64,000 nucleotides of DNA, from the NCBI GenBank assembly GCA_029706075.1, contig JAINUG010000052.1, positions 3,499,498 through 3,563,497 on the forward strand, in the 5' to 3' direction. Made by a program: the position numbers and the translations under genes. The notes beneath the pieces were generated by a model that was given only the letters and a program-made list of their open reading frames with translations, was not told the origin of the DNA and did not search any database. The DNA is from Aldrovandia affinis (Eukaryota; Chordata; Actinopteri; Notacanthiformes; Halosauridae). Below, in pieces: positions 6,228-42,296 of this stretch (positions within the stretch are counted from its first letter, which is position 1; the number at the start of each line of letters is the position of its first letter).

Positions 6228-6731
6228 AATTCTCTGCTCATGGTTTTTCCTATCACTGTTATGCCGATGACACTCAACTCTTTCTCTCCTTCTCTCCATC
6301 TGAGACCCAGGTCCCAGCACGGATCTCTGCATGCCTGGCTGACATCTCTGCATGGATTTCCACCCATCACCTGAAGCTGAACCTGGGGAAGACAGAGCTG
6401 CTCTTCCTCCCAGCGAAGCGCTCCCCGATGATTGATACGTCAATCACCGTGAAAGGCTCCATAGTGTCTCCGTCCCAGTCTGCCAGGAGTCTTGGAGTGA
6501 CCCTGGACAAACAGCTGTGCTTCTCGGGCCACATTGCAGCAATCACTCGGACCTGCCGATTCTCCCTCCACAACATCCGGAGGATCCGACCGTTCCTCAC
6601 CCAAGAGGCCACACAACTCCAGGTCCAGGCCCTGGTGATCTCACTGCAATTCCTTGCTGGCAGGCCTGCCGGCCTGTGCCATCAAGCCACTGCAACTAGT
6701 CCAGAATGCTGCCGCTCATCTGGTGTTCATC
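6228..6731 (+). mobile_element. L2 LINE fragment, RT C-terminal part
   Basis: The plus strand encodes the C-terminal part of an L2-type reverse transcriptase, from just before CYADDTQLF through LKLNLGKTELLFLP and SLGVTLDKQL to LTQEATQLQVQALV, with frame breaks. It is in the opposite orientation to the longer copy at 6733-8960, so the two lie tail to tail. Confidence 0.75.
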
Positions 6732-6732
6732 A

Positions 6733-8960
6733 TTTTACATTTACATTTTAAGCATTTAGCAGACGCTCTTATCCAGAGCGACTTACAAGTTGTGCATTAA
6801 TACATGGTAGGAACAATCATAGTTAGCGCACGAGATCAGTGCAGGAATACAGCAATAGACATCATTGCAGGCATCAACATACCACACTTGTAACACCTGT
6901 AACACCAGGAAGGAAAACGTTAGTGTGTTTTTTTAATTTTATAAATAGTGTACAACAGGTAAATAGTGGTGACAACAGATAGACTGGATGGACAGTGTTC
7001 AGTGGTAGTGGAGTCTGAAGAGGTGGGTTTTGAGTCTCTTGCGGAAGATTGGAAGTGATTCCGCAGTCCTGACCAATTGCGGGAGGTCGTTCCACCAGCG
7101 AGGAACCAGGACAGAGAAGAGGCGAGACCGCGAGGAGCGGCTGCCAGGCGCCCGGAGGGATGGGGCAGTCAGTTTGCCAGAGGAGGCAGAGCGGAGGAGT
7201 CTGGGTGGGGTGTAAGGAGTGATGAGTGACTGGAGGTATCAGGGAGCAGTACCTCTGGCCGCTTGAAAAGCAAGCACCAGTGACTTGAATCTGATGCGTG
7301 CTGCGATGGGGAGCCAGTGCAGGGAGGAGAGTAGAGGGGTGACGTGAGTGAACTTCGGCTGGTTGAACACCAGGCAGCGGCAGCGTTCTGGACAAGTTGC
7401 AGAGGTTTGATGGCACAGGCCGGAAGGCCTGCCAGCAAGGAATTGCAGTAGTCCAGACGTGAGATCACCAGGGCCTGGACCAGGAGTTGAGTGGCCTCTT
7501 GGGTGAGGAACGGTTGGATCCTCCGGATGTTGTGGAGGGAGAAACGGCAGGTCCGAGCGATCGCTGCAATATGGCTCGAGAAGCACAGCTGGGTGTCCAG
7601 GGTTACCCCAAGACTCCTGGCCGACTGGGACGGAGACACTATGGAGCCTTCCACGGTGATTGACGCATCAATCATCGGGGAGCCCTTCGCTGGGAGGAAG
7701 AGCAGCTCTGTCTTCCCCAGGTTCAGCTTCAGGTGGTGGGTGGACATCCATGCGGAGATGTCAGCCAGGCATGCAGAGATCCGTGCCGGGACCTGGGTGT
7801 CAGATGGAGGGAAGGAGAGAAAGAGTTGAGTGTCATCAGCATAACAGTGATAGGAAAAACCATGAGCAGAAATAACAGAGCCAAGTGACTTGGTGTACAG
7901 AGAGAACAGGACGGGGCCTAGCACCGAGCCCTGCGGGACTCCAGTAGAGAGGGTGTGGGGAGAGGAGAGGGATCCTCTCCAGGCCACCTGGTAGGACCGG
8001 TCAGCCAGGTAGGACTCAAACCATGTCAACGCAGATCCAGAGATTCCCATGTCGACGAGAGATGAGAGCAGGATCCGGTGGTCCACGGTGTCGAATGCCG
8101 CCGACAGGTCGAGGAGGAGGACAGAGCTAAGGGATCGGGACCTAGCAACGTGAAGAGCCTCAGTGACCGCAAGGAGAGCAGTCTCTGTGGAGTGGCCTGC
8201 TCTGAACCCAGATTGGTTGGGGTCAAGCAGGTCGTTCTGTAAGAGATGAACAGACAGTTGATTATAGACAGCCCGCTCTAATGTTTTGGAAAGGAATGGG
8301 AGGAGAGAGACAGGTCGGTAGTTAGAGATGACAGCAGGATTCAGAGAGGGTTTTTTGAGGAGGGGGACAACCTGAGCACATTTGAGGGAGGAGGGGACAG
8401 AGCCAGAGGAAAGAGAGGAGTTAATGACATTGGAGACAAAGGGGAGGATGTCCATAGCAATGGACTGGAAGAGGGGGGAAGGAATGGGATCAAGAGGGCA
8501 GGTGGTGGGACGGTGGGAGAGAACAAGTTGAAGGATGTCCGAGTCAGGGAGGGGTGAGAAGGAGGACAGAGGAGTGGGAGGTTTAGGTAGCGGGATGGGA
8601 GAGGGAGAGGTTGGGGGGAAGGAGTTGCGAATGACCTCAACCTTCTCGTGAAAGAAGGATGAGAAGTCATCGGCGGTTATAGAGGAGGGGGGTGGGGGAG
8701 GAGGAGGGGTGAGGAGAGAGGAAAACGTAGCATAGAGTTTACGTGGGTTGGAAACAGAAGATTGAATTTTAGAAAGGAAAAATGCAGACTTAGCAGAGGA
8801 GAGGTTAGTGGAGAAGGAAGCCAGGAGTGTGTGGAAGTCAGACAGAGCTACAGGGGATTTGGATTTTCTCCATTTCCTTTCTGCCGCACGCAGCTTCAGT
8901 CGGTTAGCCCGAATGGAATCGGTTAGCCAGGGCTGTTCAACCAGCCGAAGTTCACCCACG
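6733..8960 (-). mobile_element. L2 LINE, 5'-truncated copy
   Basis: A minus-strand L2 LINE running from the C-terminal side of the endonuclease linker through the whole reverse transcriptase to the 3' tail at 6733-6830. Fragments of the same family lie on both sides in the opposite orientation (6228-6731 and 8935-9180). Confidence 0.85.
7169..8959 (-). pseudogene. L2 LINE reverse transcriptase
   Basis: A 596-codon open frame carries the RT fingers/palm in order: NYRPVSLLPFLSKTLE, SGFRAGHSTETALL, LLDLSAAFDTVDH, GVPQGSVLGPVLFSLY and CYADDTQLF with the catalytic YADD. The upstream stretch (MGELRLVEQPWLTDSIRANR) is the linker that follows the APE endonuclease, so the endonuclease is missing. Near residue 530 the frame shifts away from the conserved L2 C-terminus, whose remains (LLSSLHWLPIAARIRFKSL) continue in another frame at about 7239-7360. 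The initiating Met is not a natural start. The element copies itself by target-primed reverse transcription; this copy is dead. Family: L2 by tail and RT motifs. Confidence 0.87.
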
Positions 8961-9269: not shown

Positions 9270-9840
9270 ATCCTCCAAAATGACTCACACCCTTGATAAA
9301 CATGAGCAAAGAAGGGTATATAAAATATAAAATGATGGTAGACTTGGAGACTTTGGGAGAGGGTAGATTTGTTCCCAAGATGTAACCAAGTTTTGTCGAT
9401 CTCTAAATGTGGCCCTTGGATTTTTCTTTGCCTCCCAAACCATCTGCCTCACTGTGCATGGGGGCAAGATGCACTTACATCCTCTACCAGGCAGGTTTCC
9501 CACTGTTCCAGTGGTTTTAAACGTCTTAATTATTGACCTAATAGTGGAAAGTGGTATCTTTAGGTTTTTTTTAAATGTGTTTGTAACCATCTCCTGACTT
9601 GTGAAGGCCAACAAACCTTTGTCTTGTTTATTTTCCCATGGTGATGGATGATGACAAGTTGATGTATGTTACCTCATTTTTTACCCCAGTGAAACAGGAA
9701 GCCATAGGAAGCCACAATACAGTTTCCTGACTTTGAGAAGCATGTTTCTGCAGATTTATTTTGGATGGATTTTATTTAAAATAATTATGAGGGGTGTGAA
9801 TCATTGCGACATCGTTTTTGGAGCAAAATATTACATTTTA
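9270..9840 (-). mobile_element. Tc1-like fragment with transposase N-terminus
   Basis: A minus-strand frame at 9285-9614 encodes part of the Tc1 HTH region (IPLSTIRSIIKTFKTTGTVG, NLPGRGCKCILPP, AKKNPRATFRD). The catalytic DDE part is absent. A terminus-like ACCCTTGATAAA word lies at 9290-9300. Confidence 0.7.
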
Positions 9841-10960
9841 AACAAAATCTCAATCAACTCCATAGTTGATGAAAATGTGTTTTAAAATTTAGGTCAAGTG
9901 TTTCTCCCCAAATGTCCCTGACCTTCTTTTGGAGAAGGGTCCAATAGTCCAATTTATCTGACAGTATCAATGGCTTAATTATGCCCTCGTCTATCATTTA
10001 AACTCTCGTAAGATTAGGTTAAAACAACTTTCTGCAGTACAGATGGATATTTTTCAATTGTCTAAATAGTTTTTTTCCCATCCATCTAATTGAAAAATGT
10101 GACACAGCTGTAGGAAATGCATTGTCATACTATCAATGGAAAATAGGGAAGGGATTTTCAGAGCTTTATTTAAACCAGAGGATACAGGCAGGGAAAGTTA
10201 TGAGATGGGGACCTCTACAGTCCAATATGCAGTACACAACATTTAGCCTTAATTATGAAAGAACCTGCTGCATGGTGTCTTTAAGTCATGGATCACTCCA
10301 GTGACCACATTCTTTCCTCTTGGAAAAGATAGGAAGCAAAAACAATGCAAAGGTTGAAGGTTTATACTGTAAAGCAGTAAATGTTTGTGACAACTACATT
10401 TCTCTAAACAGCCTAAAGATATTGTTTTGAACAAAGGTTTATGGTTCTGACCTGTCAATCACAAAAGTACATTTTACCATTTCTATGGAAATGGCACTAT
10501 ACAACACATCAAAAAGAAAAACATTGATGTTCTCTATTTGAGTTTCAAGCAAGGTACAATAGGTACATTTGAAATTATAATGTACAGTAAGCTCTGTTTT
10601 TATTCATACCCTTGATAAAGATGAACAAAAGAGATTGTATAAAATAAACTATATAAGTAATGAGGTATATTGTATGCTCAAAAAATTCCAAACCTACATT
10701 ATTAATACAATTGTTCAGAAAAACATATTTTGTTTTATTAATAAAAAAAATTCTCCAGAAAACATCTGGATGACAATTATTCATACCCCTAACTATTATT
10801 TTTAATGTAATCCAACAAAAACAAATCTTCATAAATATACAACTTATTTGAAGTTCATTGGAAGGTATGGAACTATACAGTGGCCTACATTGGTTTCCTG
10901 TTTCCCTTGGATATAAAAAGGAGGGAACACACATGTAAAATACTATCGTCAGCCATCATC

Positions 10961-12045
10961 ATGGTGAAAGGCAAATAACTCCCTGAAAGCATCAGAAAAA
11001 AGGTATTGACCTCTACAGATCAGGAGATGGCTACAAAAAACAAAAAAGTTAAAAGATACCACTTTCCACTGTTGTGTCAATTAATAGGAAGTTCAAGGCC
11101 ACTGGAACAATGGCTAACCTGCCAGGTAGAGGATGCAAGTCTATCTTGCCCCCACGTGTAGTGAGTCGGATGGTTCGAGAGGCAAAAAGAAAGGGCAAAG
11201 TTCAAGATCTCCAAAACAATCTGTCATCTAAAGGTGAAGATACAAGGTGTCTAAAACTATTATTCGACGTGGCCTACATGACAATGGCCTTATGGCAGAG
11301 TTGCAAGAGGGAAGCCTCTTTTGAAGACAATTCACTGAAAAAGGCATCTACAATTAGTCGAACTACAATTGGAACCGTGTCTTGTGGCCAAATCTAGCTT
11401 TTCGACATGCACATCAGTGTTATGTTTAGCGTCCAAAGAATTTAAGTAATGTTGAAAAGCACCTCATGCCTACGGGGAAACATGGTGGTGGATCTTTAAT
11501 GCTTTGGGGTTGTTTTGCACCCACAGGCTCTGGGGCCCTTATTAAAATAGATGGAACCATGAACTCCAGCATGTACCAAGACATGTTGTCCAAAAACCTT
11601 ATTCCCTCTGCCAGGAAGCGACACCTTGGCCACAGATGGACCTTCCAACAAGAAAATGATCCAAAACATACGTCCAAAGCAACTAAGAAATGGTTGGCAG
11701 AGCACAAGTTTAATGTCCTGACGTGCCCATCTCAGTCTCCAGACCTGAATCCAATTGAACATTTGTAGTTTTAACTAAAAATATATATATATGTATATAT
11801 ATATGCCATTTAGCAGACGCTTTTATCAAAAGCGACTTATAGTAGTGAATGCATACATTTTCAGTATATGTGGCTCCAGTGGGGGCATGCGATCTAAAAA
11901 GCAAGCAGTCTACAAACGTCAACCCAAGAGTCTGAAGGAACTAGAACAATTCTGCATGGAGGAACGGTTGAGGACCCCCCCCACCCCCCCAAGAAGTTCC
12001 ATAACCTCGTACGACACTACAGAAGGTGACTACTTGCTGTTATAA
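10961..12045 (+). pseudogene. Tc1-like transposase, multiply broken
   Basis: From ATGGTGAAAGGCAAA at 10961 an early stop follows. HTH remnants (KFKATGTMANLPGRGC) appear at 11092-11140. The DDE part is at 11466-11768: KHGGGSLMLWGCFAP, then ENDPKHTSKA with the second catalytic Asp and SPDLNPIE with the catalytic Glu. The C-terminus resumes after a SINE insertion at about 11900 (SLKELEQFCMEE). Stops, frameshifts and the SINE make it inactive. Confidence 0.82.
11768..11898 (-). mobile_element. SINE (tRNA head/L2-like tail) inserted in Tc1
   Basis: The segment carries the L2-like tail (GCCATTTAGCAGACGCTTTT at 11805-11824) and ATATGTGGCTCC, as in the complete SINEs at 39509 and 42151. The Tc1 sequence stops at GAACATTTGTAG and resumes at AAAGCAAGCAGTCTACAAACG, matching the uninterrupted homologous part of copy 2. 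Confidence 0.7.
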
Positions 12046-12454
12046 TGGCCAAGAGAGGAACCACAAAGTACTGATAACAGGGGTGTGAATATTTGTGATT
12101 CTTGATTTTTCTTGGAAAAAAGATATAATTTCTGAACCGTTATACAATTCTCAGATTTTTTTGGTGTAAAATATACCTCATTATATCAATGGCTTAAATT
12201 TCAGTAAAAACTGGAACTGGTGTTCTAAAACTTTTGACCGGGAGTGTATATATATATTTTTATATATGTAGTGAGTTTCTCCCCACAATAATATTTGGGG
12301 ATATTGACTGCTCACAACCAGAAGTACAAACAATAGCTATAGCCACTTTGCAAAGACAAACCTCTGTTTGGAAACCTCCATTTGGAAACAGTCTTACTGA
12401 GCAACAAATTAAAAAAGTCAGGGAGTCATATATACAGGGATAAAGAACATGTGA

Positions 12455-20817: not shown

Positions 20818-22037
20818 CAGTAAGCTGGGTTTTTTCATACCCTTGATAAAGATGAACAAAATAGATCATATTAAAAAAGTATATAAGTAATGAGCTTTAT
20901 TTCATACTCACAAAATTAAGAACATTTCAAACATACAATACTATGATTGTTCAGAAAACTTTTTGTTTTATTCATATTTTTTCCAGAAAACATCTGGATC
21001 ACAATTATTCACACCGCTAACTATTCTTTTAAATTTAATCCAAAAAAAAAAATCTTCATAAATATAACATTTTCTTTGAAGTTCATTGGACGGTTATGGA
21101 ACTATACAGTGGCCTACAATGGTTTCCTGCTTCCCTAGGGTATAAAAAGGAGGGAACACACGTTTGAAATACTGTGGTCAGCCATCACCATGGCGAAAGG
21201 CAAATAACTCCCTGAAAGCATCAGACAAAAGGTTATTGACCTCTACAGATCAGGAGATAGCTACAAAAAAATCACTAAAAAGTTAAAGATACCGCTTTCC
21301 ACTTCAATTATCAGGAGGTTTAAGGCCACTGGAACAGGGGCTAACCTGCCAGGTAGAGGACGCAAGTCTATCTTGCCTCCACGTGTAGTGAGACAGATGG
21401 TTTGAGAGGCAAAAAGAAGTCTAATGGGCACAGTTCAGATCTCCAAAACAACGTAGCATCTTGGAGTTACAAGGTGGCTAAAGCTACTATTCGATGACAA
21501 TGACCTTGTTACAAGAAGACTCTTTTGAAGAGTTCTTATGTTCTTATGAAGACAATTCACTGAAAAGGGCATCTTGAATTTGCCAAACTACATCTGAACT
21601 ACAATTGGAACCGTGTCTTGTGGTCAGATTAAACAAAAATCAAGCTTTTTGAACAAGCACATCCAATGAATGTAAGTAATGTTGACAAGGACCTCATGCC
21701 TACGGTGGTGGATCTTTAATGCTTTGGGGTTGTTTTGCATCCACAAGCCCTGGCCACATATTAAAATAGATGACACCATGAACTTCAGCATGTACCAAGA
21801 CATTTTGTCCAAAAACCTTGTTCCCTCTGCCAGAAAGTTACACCTTGGCCGCAGATGGACCTTCCAACAAGACAACGATCCCAAACACAACTAAGAAATG
21901 GTTGACAGAGCACAAGATCAATGTTCTGACATGGCCATCTCAGTCTCCAGACCTGAATCCAATTGAACATTTGTGGTTTGAACAAAAAAACAAAAACAAA
22001 AAAAAAGCAGTACACAAACGTCAACCTGAAGGAACTA
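20818..22037 (+). mobile_element. Tc1-like transposon, family C copy 2, left part
   Basis: The left terminus is TA/CAGTAAGCTGGG at 20816-20829. The interior matches copy 1 (10585-12200) closely but carries frameshifts. DDE remnants read NDPKH (21880s) and SPDLNPIE at 21949-21972. The sequence stops at GAAGGAACTA (22037), where a 3.2-kb transposon is inserted, and resumes at 25269. Confidence 0.78.
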
Positions 22038-25000
22038 TAGTGGAGCGGCTAAGTGCTTATTTTCGTCAGAATCTTTCAATTGATGATACAAGCGTGAAAA
22101 TTGGCATGAGCAGTCTCCATGGGTCACTTGACAAGAAAATTGTCCGAGACATTTGAAATTTCAAGATGGCGGCCATTTTTCAAGATGGCCGACACCTTAG
22201 TGGAGCAGTTAAGTGATATAATGGTTTATTTGGTGGTAGAAGCATGAAAATTGGCATGAGCAGTCTCTGTGGGTCACTTGACAAGAAGCCACCCACAGCC
22301 ACTTGAAATTTCAAGATGGCAGCCATTTTCCAAGATGGCCGCCACCTTAATGGAGCAGTTAGGCCTAAATAATCATTTAGTTGGTGATACAAGCATGGAA
22401 ATTGCCATGAGCCATCTCAAAGGGTCACTTCACAAGAAAATTCTCCCAGACATTTGAAATTTCAAGATAGAGGCCATTTTTCAAGATGGCTGCCGCCCGC
22501 CATGTGGATCTTTAAATGATACATTTTCTCATAGAAATGTATTGGGTTCCTCAAAAGGCTCTGTCAAGAGAGGTTGTTTGACTGTGTTTTGTCTGACTCC
22601 TCGCCCACGACCTGTCCAGTTTGGTAAAACCTGCCAGGAGTTGCCTCCCACCGGCATAGCTCTCAGGGTTCACTGAGGTACACAAGCTCCCTTACCACGA
22701 CAAGGTAACAGTCACAAGGGATTTTTTATTTTTTTGTAACTAACAGCCATTAAATTTGTCAAATAAATACTAAGGGGTGGGGAAACAAAAAATAAGATTA
22801 ATAAATTAGCACAGTTGTGGTGCTGAACGGACAGTGCTCCAAAATAATAATTGAGCAATGGCTAATACTGAATGGCAATAAGGACAGATCCAGAGGCAAC
22901 AGCAGCTCTGGCTGACACAGCCACGGAACCATGACAAACAGAAAGTATCTCAAACAATACTAAGGAACTAAACTGAAAATGTGCTTCACTGTTAGATATA
23001 GGCAGTGGAAGCAATGTTACAAAGTAACAACTGAAAATTTTACAGTAATAGGCTGGTGACAAAGTAAAACATGATGCGCCGATGTGGCGAGGGGAAGCCG
23101 AGCCATAGGCCTACACCTGAAAACACAGAGGACAACGGGAATAACTCTGGCAAAAGAAACATGCAAATAGGTTCTAGCAGGGGCAACTACATAGGCATGT
23201 GCAACTGAGTCCATATCTGAAGCACTTACACCTTCCAGTACATGTCTTGGTGCACCCACATTTGGTCAACTCCCAACAACTCTCCGCAATAGGTGGAAGT
23301 GGAGTCCAGAAGACTTTCCACTCCTCGTCCTGTTCCACCCATCCCCAGTCGGATGGGCTCGGCATTTGTGGTTGTCGCTTCAATGCCTGTCCCCACACGT
23401 ATCCAGCCTCATAAGAAGCACGTTTGGCATGCTCTTTGAGTGCTGCTTGAGTTGGTGGGATCAAGTCATATTGTCTTTGCTTTCTGGCAAAGAGATCAAG
23501 CCTGGCCTCGTTCACAGTTGTGACATCGCTGGACCTGTCATACATTAGCACAACAAATCTCTCCAAAGCTTGCAGGTCACTATCCTCCACTGCAGAGGGA
23601 CATTCGCTGAGTGTTGCAAATGTGTTTGAGACCTCATCACACACATCCCATGTTTTCCAGGCAGACTTCTTTGATTTGCCATGGAAGGATGACACAATGT
23701 CACAACCACTGAAGGCATGGAAGAAGAGGATACCACTCATCTTCACAGATAAAGCACAAAGCTGTCGAGGGCTGGGATCTTCTTGGCCTCTTGACATGGA
23801 TATCTTTGGTATCTTCGGTGTCTTCAGCAGCAGTAGAAGATGCTCTCTTTTGGGCCCTTTCCAGCTTTGTGTTGTTGAACATAAGTTTACAGCTTGAATG
23901 ATATTTTGCTCTGTTTCTTGTCAATGTGCTTTCTGTGCCATCACCTTCATCTAGTCGGGTTGGACTAAGTAAGATAGGCAGAGCATTGATCTTATGAAAT
24001 AATGGAACATTTCTTGCAATGGTACCATAACCAGTACGATCGTGCTCTCTGTTGAATAAACTCGGCTGAATTAGTTTTTCCTTGGTGTCCTGCTGAAAAA
24101 TGAAACATCTGTCCCAGTTAGTTTTCTCAACTGTTATGATGGCTTCTGCCATGTCTGCAGCAAATGCATAGGCAGAGGCTGAGGGTTTATCCTTTTACCA
24201 CCTTTTACCAAGCACTTTGATGTATGGGATACAACTAAGTTCATGCCTTAACCCTACACTTAGTCCGATCGTTCATCCAATGCCATTTATATCCCGTGCG
24301 ATCTGTACACCATCCGGTTAACTAAAACCCCATTAACCTTGGCTCGGCTCTCCGCGCTGGCACAACCTGTCAATTCAGGTGCGGCTATCTAACTGTTTTG
24401 GGGTAAATTAGACAGCATTTGGGATACTAACTTTCAATTAGCTGACATTGAACCCCACTCTGAGTTTAACAGCAGTGATATATCACCAGTGTGCCCTGGT
24501 AGTGCAGATATTCACTCTTGTCTAATCTATCTATGATCAACAAATCAACACAACTGTATTTTGATGCGTTAAAAGTTGTTCTTTAGCATAATCTAAAACA
24601 TATAAAATAAAATGACACCAAATCGTCCTTAATGAAAAAACCCAATACATTTCTATGAGAAAAGGGATCTTTTGAGGATCCAGGGGCGGCCATCTTGAAA
24701 ATTGAAATTTCAAGTGGCTGGGAGTGTTTTCTTGTCAAGCAACCCTTAGAGACTGCTCATACCAATTTGCATGCTTGTGTCACTAACTAAACAATGATAT
24801 CGCTTAACTACTCCATTTAGGTGGTGGCCATCTTGAAAATGGCTGCCATCTTGAAATTTCAAGTGGCTGTGGGCGGTTTCTTGTCAAATGACCCTTTGAG
24901 ACGGCTCATGGCAATTTTCATGCTTGTATCACCAACTAAATGATTTCTTAAGCCTAACTGCTCCACTAAGGTGGTGGCCATCTTGAAAAATGGCCGCCAT

Positions 25001-25268
25001 CTTGAAATTTCAAGTGGCTGTGGGTGGCTTCTTGTCAAGTGACCCACAGAGACTGCTCATGTCAATTTTCATGCTTGTATCACCAAATAAACCATTATAT
25101 CACTTAACTGCTCCACTAAGGTGTCAGCCATCTTGAAAAATGGCCGCCATCTTGAAATTTCAAATGGCTCGGACAATTTTCTTGTCAAGTGACCCATGGA
25201 GACTGCTCATGCCAATTTTCACGCTTGTATCACAAATTGAAAGATTGTAGCACTTATCTGCTCCACTA
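22038..25268. mobile_element. Inverted-repeat DNA transposon F, 3-bp TSD, tandem-unit arms
   Basis: The insertion is delimited exactly by comparison with the empty site in copy 1 (GGAACTAGAAC): GGAACTA, element, CTAGAAC, giving TSD CTA (22035-22037 and 25269-25271). The ends are inverted: TAGTGGAGCGG at the left and its complement-like CTGCTCCACTA at the right. The left arm (22038 to about 22545) has three and the right arm (about 24630-25268) four diverged units of about 150 bp, each with ..GGAGCAGTTA.., GATACAAGC, CACTTGACAAGAA and AAATTTCAAGATGGCGGCC. The middle carries a minus-strand protein remnant. The superfamily is unassigned; the 3-bp TSD would allow Academ, CACTA-like or Harbinger-like groups, and I could not decide between them. 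Confidence 0.82.
23174..24152 (-). pseudogene. Zn-finger/CXC-domain protein of transposon F, internally deleted
   Basis: Two overlapping frames. The first (24152-23700) is an N-terminal Zn-binding-like region: KTNWDRCFIFQQDTKEKL, RLDEGDGTESTLTRNRAKYH, SSCKLMFNNTKLERAQKR, ending at ALCFICEDE. The second (23797-23174) continues with FFHAFSGCDIVSSFHGKSKK, a conserved LMYDR / VNEARLDLFARKQRQ stretch and KRASYEAGYVWGQAL. It ends in CGCTKTCTGRCKCFRYGLSC followed by TCLCSC, a tesmin/TSO1-like CXC cysteine pattern. I have seen this arrangement in long uncharacterised proteins of fish and marine invertebrates; here the large middle part is missing, joined near 23750 with a frame change. The Asp of SGCD could be catalytic, but that is speculation. 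Not a host gene. Confidence 0.68.
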
Positions 25269-25560
25269 CTAGAACAATTCTGCATGGAGGAATGATTGAG
25301 GATCACCCCTAAGAAGTTCCATAACCTCGTACGACACTACATAAGGTGACTATTTGCTGTTATAACGGCCAAAGGAGGAACCACAAAGTACTGGTGACTT
25401 TGTGTGAATATTTGTGATTCTTGATTTTTCTGGGGAAAAAAGGATAATTTGTGAACCGTTCGATTGTGGTTCATGCCAGTGCATTATTATTAAATAATTT
25501 AACTTTCTGAATTTTGTGAGCATAGAATAAAGGTAATTACTTATGAAAAAAACTGGAAAA
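25269..25560 (+). mobile_element. Tc1-like transposon, family C copy 2, right part
   Basis: Continues copy 2 after transposon F: AGAACAATTCTGCATGGAGG, then AAGAAGTTCCATAACCTCG and TGAATATTTGTGATTCTTG as at 11941-12110. The inner TIR block TTTTGTGAGCATAGAATAAAG (about 25515) is the inverse of 20894-20920. Confidence 0.75.
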
Positions 25561-39624: not shown

Positions 39625-42150
39625 CCATATTTATTTACATGTAGAATTGTGAAGAATTTTCAAAGCCAGATTCAAGACAGTGGTTCCAAACCTGTCACAG
39701 CTTCTTAAACTGTGCAACATAGTAAAATTATCAGGCATCATAAAAAAACATACTTTTTGTGGCATTCTGATATAGAGATCTGTATTTTGTATGAAGTCAA
39801 AATAAAACTGGATGGACAATATACACTGGACAACCAAAAAAAACAAGATTCCATCCCCATCCCATCACACAGTTTACAACAAAACAAAATATAATACCTA
39901 GTTTTTTCCCTTTTTTTTGATTTTGTAAAGCTGTAATCCATTTTTACATACAGTATGCAAATAGGGTTATGATCACACCCAATCTCCAGCCAGTATTTAG
40001 CATTTATGAATCACATGCAGCATTTTCTCAGTATCCTCATGTCAGAGCCATCAATAATTGAACATGTTTACACTCCTCCGTATTCAGTAATTACTGAATA
40101 TTTTAGTCGTTATATTTATTTCTATTTTACTTGTCTTTGCTTTTAAATGTTTTGATGGTTTATACAGAGTGAGGGAAGCACTGCCCATATGCACTCTGTT
40201 TATTGGACTACCACTTAGTTCTTGCAAAGGAAAGTTGAAGAAACAGCAGGATTGGACTTGATAAGGTTTTCATTGCTTCATGTTAACATTTCACAACAGT
40301 GCAAACTGCTAAGCCCTCTCTGGGGACTAAATGACAAATTTAGAAATTTAGAAAAGATTGTGTATTGTATTGACTCAGCTTCAATTACAGATAATACAGT
40401 ATTGCAGTCATGGTTACCTTAGTTCTAAACTGTCACCCAGCACGAATATAAAATGCAGGAATAAGAGTCTTCATTACCTTGTTTGCCATATTATTGTACC
40501 ATTTGTAATAAATGACGGTGGTTATGGCTATGCTATAATACAATGTGATGGTATTCTAAATGAGCACCAGGGGGCACCCAAGCACACAGAGGGTTGAAAA
40601 CACTCTTAATGGCTCAATAATTTAGTTTGGGGTTTGAATTATTGTAACCTACACAATGCATATTTTCTGAATTAGAAATAATTGATACAATACATTGAAC
40701 TGAGACATCTAATGTATTTTAATTAGCTCTACGCAATTGGTAGTTGGATATCAAGATGGCAAATCTGCAATAATGTGTACATTATTTACTGGTAACATAC
40801 CACTGAAAAGAATGTGCACTAGAGTTACACCATGTTCAACAGTGTGACAAATACACCACTAAAATGAGTCCACAGTTGTTTTTGGGGGGGGGAATCCATC
40901 TTGTAATCCATTATTTTTGTTCATGAGCATGCATCGTCATCATAACCACTCACCATTGAGTCTAATTGGTAGGAAAGTGAGTGCAACCCCCAAGAAGCTT
41001 AAAGGCAATATCGAACAGTTCTTAAAACAGCCTTTCATTTAACTTTTTAAAGAAAACAAACAAAATGCTGAAAATACAGAAGACAGTTATTCTGGGTGGT
41101 GCGACTGCAATGTGTGAGATGTTTAATAGTCCCATGCTGAAAACGAGGAGGGAATGGTGGAATGTCTCTATAAATATCCACAGTGAGTAACAATTAGTAA
41201 GAGGTGTGACAATTTTGTAAGTAAAGGGGATATCAACACATATGCAAATTCAATGTGGTTCACTCTGCCTCCAATGTAATATAAATAAAGTAGGAAAAAG
41301 CACCTAGAGTATGTATAGATGGAAATTTATTGTAGCTTCAAATACTTTTTCAATCTCACCAATCACCATATGCACATTTGAAGTTTAAACCCACATTAGC
41401 TACATATAGCATTTTAACAAGGTACATCCTTTCTGAAGTAGATGTTTCTTTTTTCCCCCCAAACATGATATAGTGTAAGTACAATATCTATAGATGATAT
41501 ATGAAAGACCTACTTTGTCTACGCATCACATGAGCACAAAACATCAATGTAGGACAAACTTTCACTTGAGACAAAACTAGCAGGAATGAATGACTAAAAA
41601 TGAATTAAATAAAACCACTTCCCCTGACTTGTAAGAAATGTAGCATTTTATAATGACAAAAATGACACAAAAAATGGCCACAACTTAAACGGCGTGTATT
41701 AATGTTTTGTTAGTTATGTTAATGTGCTGTGATAGGTAAAAAGGCACTCCCAACACCGCCCAGCAGGATGAACGAAGGAGCAATCTGACCAACCATTGCA
41801 ACATACCTTGTTTTACGTTATCATTCCTGTTTATTTAATGAATCCTTAGGAGCACAACAAAATTATTGAACCTGTATCTCTGTTCTTCATCCAGTAAGTT
41901 CCAACAATATTTGTCAGATTCTTGGCACCCAGGTATGGTCTCAAATAAGAGGGCACCAACAAGACATTTTTGTTACTCTGTATTAACTATAATTAATGTT
42001 GTGCAGACTGTTTAACAAGCAATACCCGTTATCCAAATATCCTGTCTGACATTTCTATGAAAGACAGAGAATGTTGTTTATGTTTGTGGTAAAGTGACAA
42101 TGTACTGTGTTAAATCAGGTAGATTTCACATTTTTAATATAATAATATAT
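39625..42150. other. Intergenic DNA, nothing recognised
   Basis: AT-rich; no exon, RNA gene or transposon supported. The left end of the clstn1 3' UTR may reach into the right part of this stretch. Confidence 0.4.
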
Positions 42151-42296
42151 ATGCTATTTAGCAGACGCTTTTATCCAAAGCGACTTACAGTAGTGAATGC
42201 AAACACTTCTCAGTATATGTGGCCCCAATGGGAATCGAACCCACAATCTAAGCATTGTCAGTGCCATGCTCTACCTTCTGAGCCACACAGAATCAC
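42151..42296 (-). mobile_element. tRNA-derived SINE with L2-like tail, near-complete
   Basis: The minus strand starts TGTGTGGCTCAGAAGGTAGAG (box A), has GTGGGTTCGATTCCCA (box B) about 45 bp later, then GGGGCCACATATACTGAG, a short unique body, and the tail AAGTCGCTTTGGATAAAAGC followed by GTCTGCTAAATAGC. Its tail sequence matches the L2 LINE 3' ends in this window, the usual parasite-partner relation. Confidence 0.87.

Follow-up and report, generated by a model that had tools for sequence, protein, structure and literature searches.

A young, internally deleted transposon with arrayed termini in Aldrovandia affinis, probably of the nuclease-bearing AcademX lineage

Introduction

Which kind of mobile element lies at positions 22038 to 25268 of a 64,000-nucleotide stretch of the Aldrovandia affinis genome (GenBank assembly GCA_029706075.1, contig JAINUG010000052.1, positions 3,499,498 to 3,563,497; hereafter the window), and can it be placed in a described family? 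The original prediction, made from the letters alone, recognized an inverted-repeat transposon flanked by a 3-bp target-site duplication (TSD), a description that the ends and the further copies now confirm, and held that its TSD size, termini and cargo match no family that could be named with confidence. The interior is defective, with an internal deletion. Our data indicate that the element is most probably a young non-autonomous cut-and-paste derivative of the Academ superfamily, in its nuclease-bearing AcademX lineage, a placement set by nuclease fold and TSD length against the published description.

The AcademX lineage was reportedly defined by Kojima in 2020. AcademX elements are described as carrying a nuclease and producing duplications of 3 or 4 bp, and AcademH elements as carrying a helicase and producing duplications of 9 or 10 bp (PMC10045372). 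The window family encodes an XPG-type nuclease and shows an exact 3-bp duplication in 22 of 24 copies; since an XPG/FEN-fold nuclease with a 3-bp duplication is the combination published for AcademX, we filed it there, and the claim that it resembles no family does not stand. AcademH was rejected by the 3-bp duplication, and no helicase was found among the Pfam matches.

Results

The element, its duplications and the corresponding empty site are located as follows.

22035 to 22037, plus strand: left TSD, CTA, read directly
22038 to 25268, minus strand: whole element, a deletion derivative whose coding strand is the minus strand of the window
25269 to 25271, plus strand: right TSD, CTA, read directly
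11941 to 11943, plus strand: empty site, a single CTA in a second Tc1-like copy, by sequence comparison

Read directly with their flanks, the ends are GGAACTA/TAGTGGAGC...GCTCCACTA/CTAGAAC and the empty counterpart is GGAACTAGAAC, so that the predicted CTA/CTA duplication is exact to the base. The flanks belong to a Tc1-like element, a second copy of which (10809-12141) has the insertion site unoccupied; they match this copy at 79.8% over 1,018 columns (10809-11781) and at 85.1% over 201 columns (11941-12141), and the empty site expected near 11935-11950 was recovered as the single CTA at 11941-11943. The final ~48 bases 5' of the site were aligned by eye only, because the empty-site copy has a separate insertion of its own from 11781 to ~11900, including a UnaL2 match.

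Used as a query against the source genome (1.22 Gb in 2,576 contigs), the left arm gave at least 85 matches spread over 25 contigs, that of the window among them. The terminus pattern TAGTGGAGCNGNTAAGTG gave 108 exact matches against none for a reversed control, and added two contigs, C291 and C1447 (among 100 of the 108 matches listed). Our copy set comprised the window copy and those on all 24 other left-arm contigs (25 copies), both ends being read in 24 and one end only in L029. Read with flanks, these copies settled TSD length and termini: the exact 3-bp duplication was present in 22 of the 24 two-ended copies, including L016 and L027, the exceptions being L022 (TAT/TAC) and L021 (none). 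The duplicated sequences were mixed (including TTG, GAA, CAG, TGC and ACT), with A or T as the middle base in 19 of the 22. In L021, which lacks a target duplication, both ends were of the left type, and this copy probably arose by recombination, either between copies or between arms. Of 16 aligned copies, 14 were 99.4-99.7% identical to the majority consensus and the remaining ones 98.2% and 99.1%, figures to be read with caution as 11 of the 16 themselves built the consensus. Judged from this near-consensus identity, the family is young and the window copy was recently inserted.

The mixed duplications also bear on PIF/Harbinger elements, whose 3-bp duplications are of TWA type; no TWA target was found, and this superfamily was rejected. 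The termini run 5'-TAGTGG ... CCACTA-3'. CACTA elements start with 5'-CACTA and end with TAGTG-3', and the strand polarity of the terminus determines the 3' end at which joining takes place. The prediction that the ends look like a CACTA terminus in reversed polarity was right in so far as the motif is present in the reverse complement, and the likeness of the ends goes no further. That the element is nevertheless a CACTA/EnSpm (CMC) transposon with its termini read in the opposite direction is highly improbable: the 3-bp duplication and the letters CACTA at one end are common to both, but every end that we read starts 5'-TAGTG or TAATG and finishes CACTA-3', the encoded protein is a different one, with a nuclease of XPG/FEN fold, and no CACTA-type transposase appeared in any Pfam scan.

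A search for longer copies, as had been proposed, found a long form of ~6.9 kb (six copies of 6,866-6,897 bp). The window copy is without one ~3.5-kb block, corresponding to the part between L009 positions 2148 and 5661.

23736 to 23737, no strand: internal deletion junction, ~3.5 kb of the long form missing; the join shares at most one base
23174 to 23920, minus strand: 248-aa open frame, stop to stop

In this frame, the C-terminal end of the nuclease region (GCDIVSSFHGKSKK...) and the cysteine-rich tail are joined by the deletion to a piece of the N-terminal region; the window copy is a deletion derivative, probably non-autonomous. Other copies have deletions at other places, down to L027, reduced to its arms. 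This miniature form (L027:469-1259, 791 bp) has a CAT/CAT duplication.

The long form encodes one long protein with cysteine/histidine-rich N-terminal parts, a central region, an XPG/FEN-fold nuclease and a cysteine-rich tail. Alignment-based structure prediction shows the XPG/FEN fold for the nuclease region (single-sequence prediction was poor, with a predicted local distance difference test score of 36.7; alignment A1 left out L050, which has stops in frame, and L054). The central region would be a transposase using DDE chemistry. A match to DUF6589 was sub-threshold and found in one of six sequences (Pfam), and our literature search found no paper linking DUF6589 to transposition. Searches of Pfam, NCBIfam and PDB sequences gave no usable family for the protein, and a scan of viral contigs gave no match. 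The putative transposase region matched no named family, which weighs against the AcademX placement and counts for a new superfamily that merely shares the XPG/FEN-type nuclease with AcademX, as does the fact that the placement was made from nuclease fold and TSD length. We consider such a superfamily unlikely. The combination seen here, a single large protein with this type of nuclease fold plus a duplication of 3 bp, is the one published for AcademX, and an overlooked superfamily is improbable because the genome holds many relatives, among which the family is a single branch; the nuclease frame has at least 99 matches there (38-100% identical among the matches listed).

Five diverged relatives (L044-L048) were searched for their ends. 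L044, with a nuclease part 60% identical, shows ends of the form TAGTGGAGCAG, is flanked by an ATT/ATT duplication and carries a single unit in each arm; L046, 42% identical, has related ends (its left terminus diverged, with 18 of 30 positions matching), a TAA/TAA duplication and no array. Two others gave neither ends nor a duplication, and an end candidate in L048 was weak and not credited. Since the end search required, and thus presupposed, matching 3-bp flanks, the L044 and L046 duplications rest on direct readings. Three features recur in the window family, L044 and L046: the terminus, GCC-rich repeats and a block around ACAAGC...AAATTGG. L048 (1689-4094, minus strand) carries an 802-aa open frame that has these nuclease motifs too but belongs to a more distant second lineage; copies of this frame on C1866, C1158 and C668 are 99% identical, which points to another young family of the nuclease-bearing kind. 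Long open frames are also present in diverged relatives, for instance one of 1,434 aa on contig C2500 and one of 1,164 aa on C1335. Adjoining a relative, L045 holds an intact 365-aa frame (6716-7810, plus strand), which by eye looks like a Tc1-type transposase.

The inverted arms (411 nt, 93% complementarity) are arrays of period 150, with three units on the left and four on the right in the window copy, in agreement with the unequal arrays of ~150-bp units originally described.

22038 to 22197, plus strand: left arm unit 1, outermost, terminus type TAGTGGAGCGGCTAAG
22198 to 22347, plus strand: left arm unit 2, internal terminus type TAGTGGAGCAGTTAAG
22348 to 22500, plus strand: left arm unit 3 (TAATGGAGCAGTTAGG), inner limit approximate
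24680 to 24818, minus strand: right arm unit 4, innermost, shortened (AAATGGAGTAGTTAAG)
24819 to 24968, minus strand: right arm unit 3
24969 to 25118, minus strand: right arm unit 2
25119 to 25268, minus strand: right arm unit 1, outermost, terminus type TAGTGGAGCAGATAAG

Every unit opens with one form or another of the terminus (TAGTGGAGCGGCTAAG outermost on the left, TAGTGGAGCAGATAAG outermost on the right, TAGTGGAGCAGTTAAG and variants internally), and the units pair by position between the arms (L1-R1, L2-R2, L3-R3, with R4 extra). Units were counted in 21 copies, L021 being left out. Left arms consisted of three units (11 copies), four (seven copies) or at least nine (one copy), with the array interrupted in the remaining two copies, and right arms of four (19 copies) or three (two copies). 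The expanded left arm belongs to a 13.4-kb copy on contig C151 (L032/L033). None of the 24 two-ended copies used an inner unit as its outer end, which would be a sign of active internal termini; ends were of the left (CGGC) or right (CAGA) type.

It is possible, though we favor it less than a role for the units, that the arrays are plain satellite-like amplification, useless to the element. Unit number varies among copies, reaching at least nine in the C151 copy, and relatives do with one unit per arm; against this, each unit matches the one at the same place in the opposite arm, and 19 of 21 copies retain four right units, but copies so young would look alike anyway. The motif AAGATGGCNGCC, with at most one mismatch allowed, was found at 18 places in the window, always within the arms, against 0.9 expected, and these occurrences are not independent events, the units being copies of each other. 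A similar motif is reported as a binding site for YY1, as well as an SREBP-2 motif (PMC4669652).

Further Tc1-like copies were observed at 9375-9724 and 10809-12141 of the window; the former, which lies inverted beside the empty-site copy, is 72% identical to the left flank. The 3' elements of UnaL2, a long interspersed element (LINE), were seen at 42148-42285, 11800-11853 and 6746-6798, one adjoining a tRNA-like match; they are probably tRNA-derived short interspersed elements with a LINE tail. The one at 11800 sits within the empty-site Tc1-like copy.

Discussion

The likeness to AcademX consists of an XPG/FEN-type nuclease joined to the remaining protein, a 3-bp duplication, a long element and terminal inverted repeats (TIRs); the difference is that the arms of the window family are arrays of three to four whole terminal modules (at least nine in one copy). 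In this respect the family recalls the Drosophila Foldback/Galileo elements, described as having long, internally repetitive arms whose unit number varies between arms and copies, with parallels to our arms-only copy (L027) and our chimeric copy without target duplication (L021) (PMC3573991). Unlike Foldback/Galileo, the window family combines a 3-bp duplication with an XPG/FEN-type nuclease; Galileo F has its repeats inside the TIR, whereas here every repeat opens with a terminus copy of its own, and P/Galileo was rejected by duplication length, 3 bp against 7 bp in Galileo (PMC3573991). A coral CMITE paper (PMC2872659) concerns piggyBac-like miniature inverted-repeat transposable elements and is unrelated.

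Regarding mechanism, a protein from a working copy elsewhere would most likely act in trans on copies of the window type, bind the arm units, pair the two outermost termini and excise the element; joining to the target with a 3-base stagger and gap repair would then yield the 3-bp duplication. The tandem units would be extra binding sites, with cutting at the outermost terminus only, and tandem repeats in TIRs have been proposed as secondary transposase-binding sites convergent across several superfamilies (PMC3573991). The window copy lost ~3.5 kb of coding sequence, either before or after insertion into the old Tc1-like element.

As a guess, the nuclease might cut the second strand. In a fuller version, which we regard as a long shot, the DDE part would free the 3' ends and the nuclease would cut the 5' strand at a branched or unpaired junction, and the arrayed modules, with spare termini and paired YY1-like sites, would form a synapsis platform gathering transposase, and perhaps host YY1, before the outermost cut. 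In Tn7, TnsB and TnsA share the labor of strand cutting; the proposed division resembles theirs, with a repair-type flap nuclease here fused to the transposase.

In brief, the element is probably a defective young copy of a nuclease-bearing Academ with Foldback-like arms, of a known kind, and the family itself appears to be new in the searches made; no Academ element with arrayed termini was found in our literature search, Repbase and most subscription papers being outside its reach. A young family is named in a vertebrate-sized genome, in which related families show one-unit and many-unit arms side by side. This opens two questions to testing, namely how a cut-and-paste transposon is served by having its termini multiplied and for what reason a flap-type nuclease is present in AcademX elements, and it may add the Foldback-like architecture beyond the superfamilies in which we found it described.
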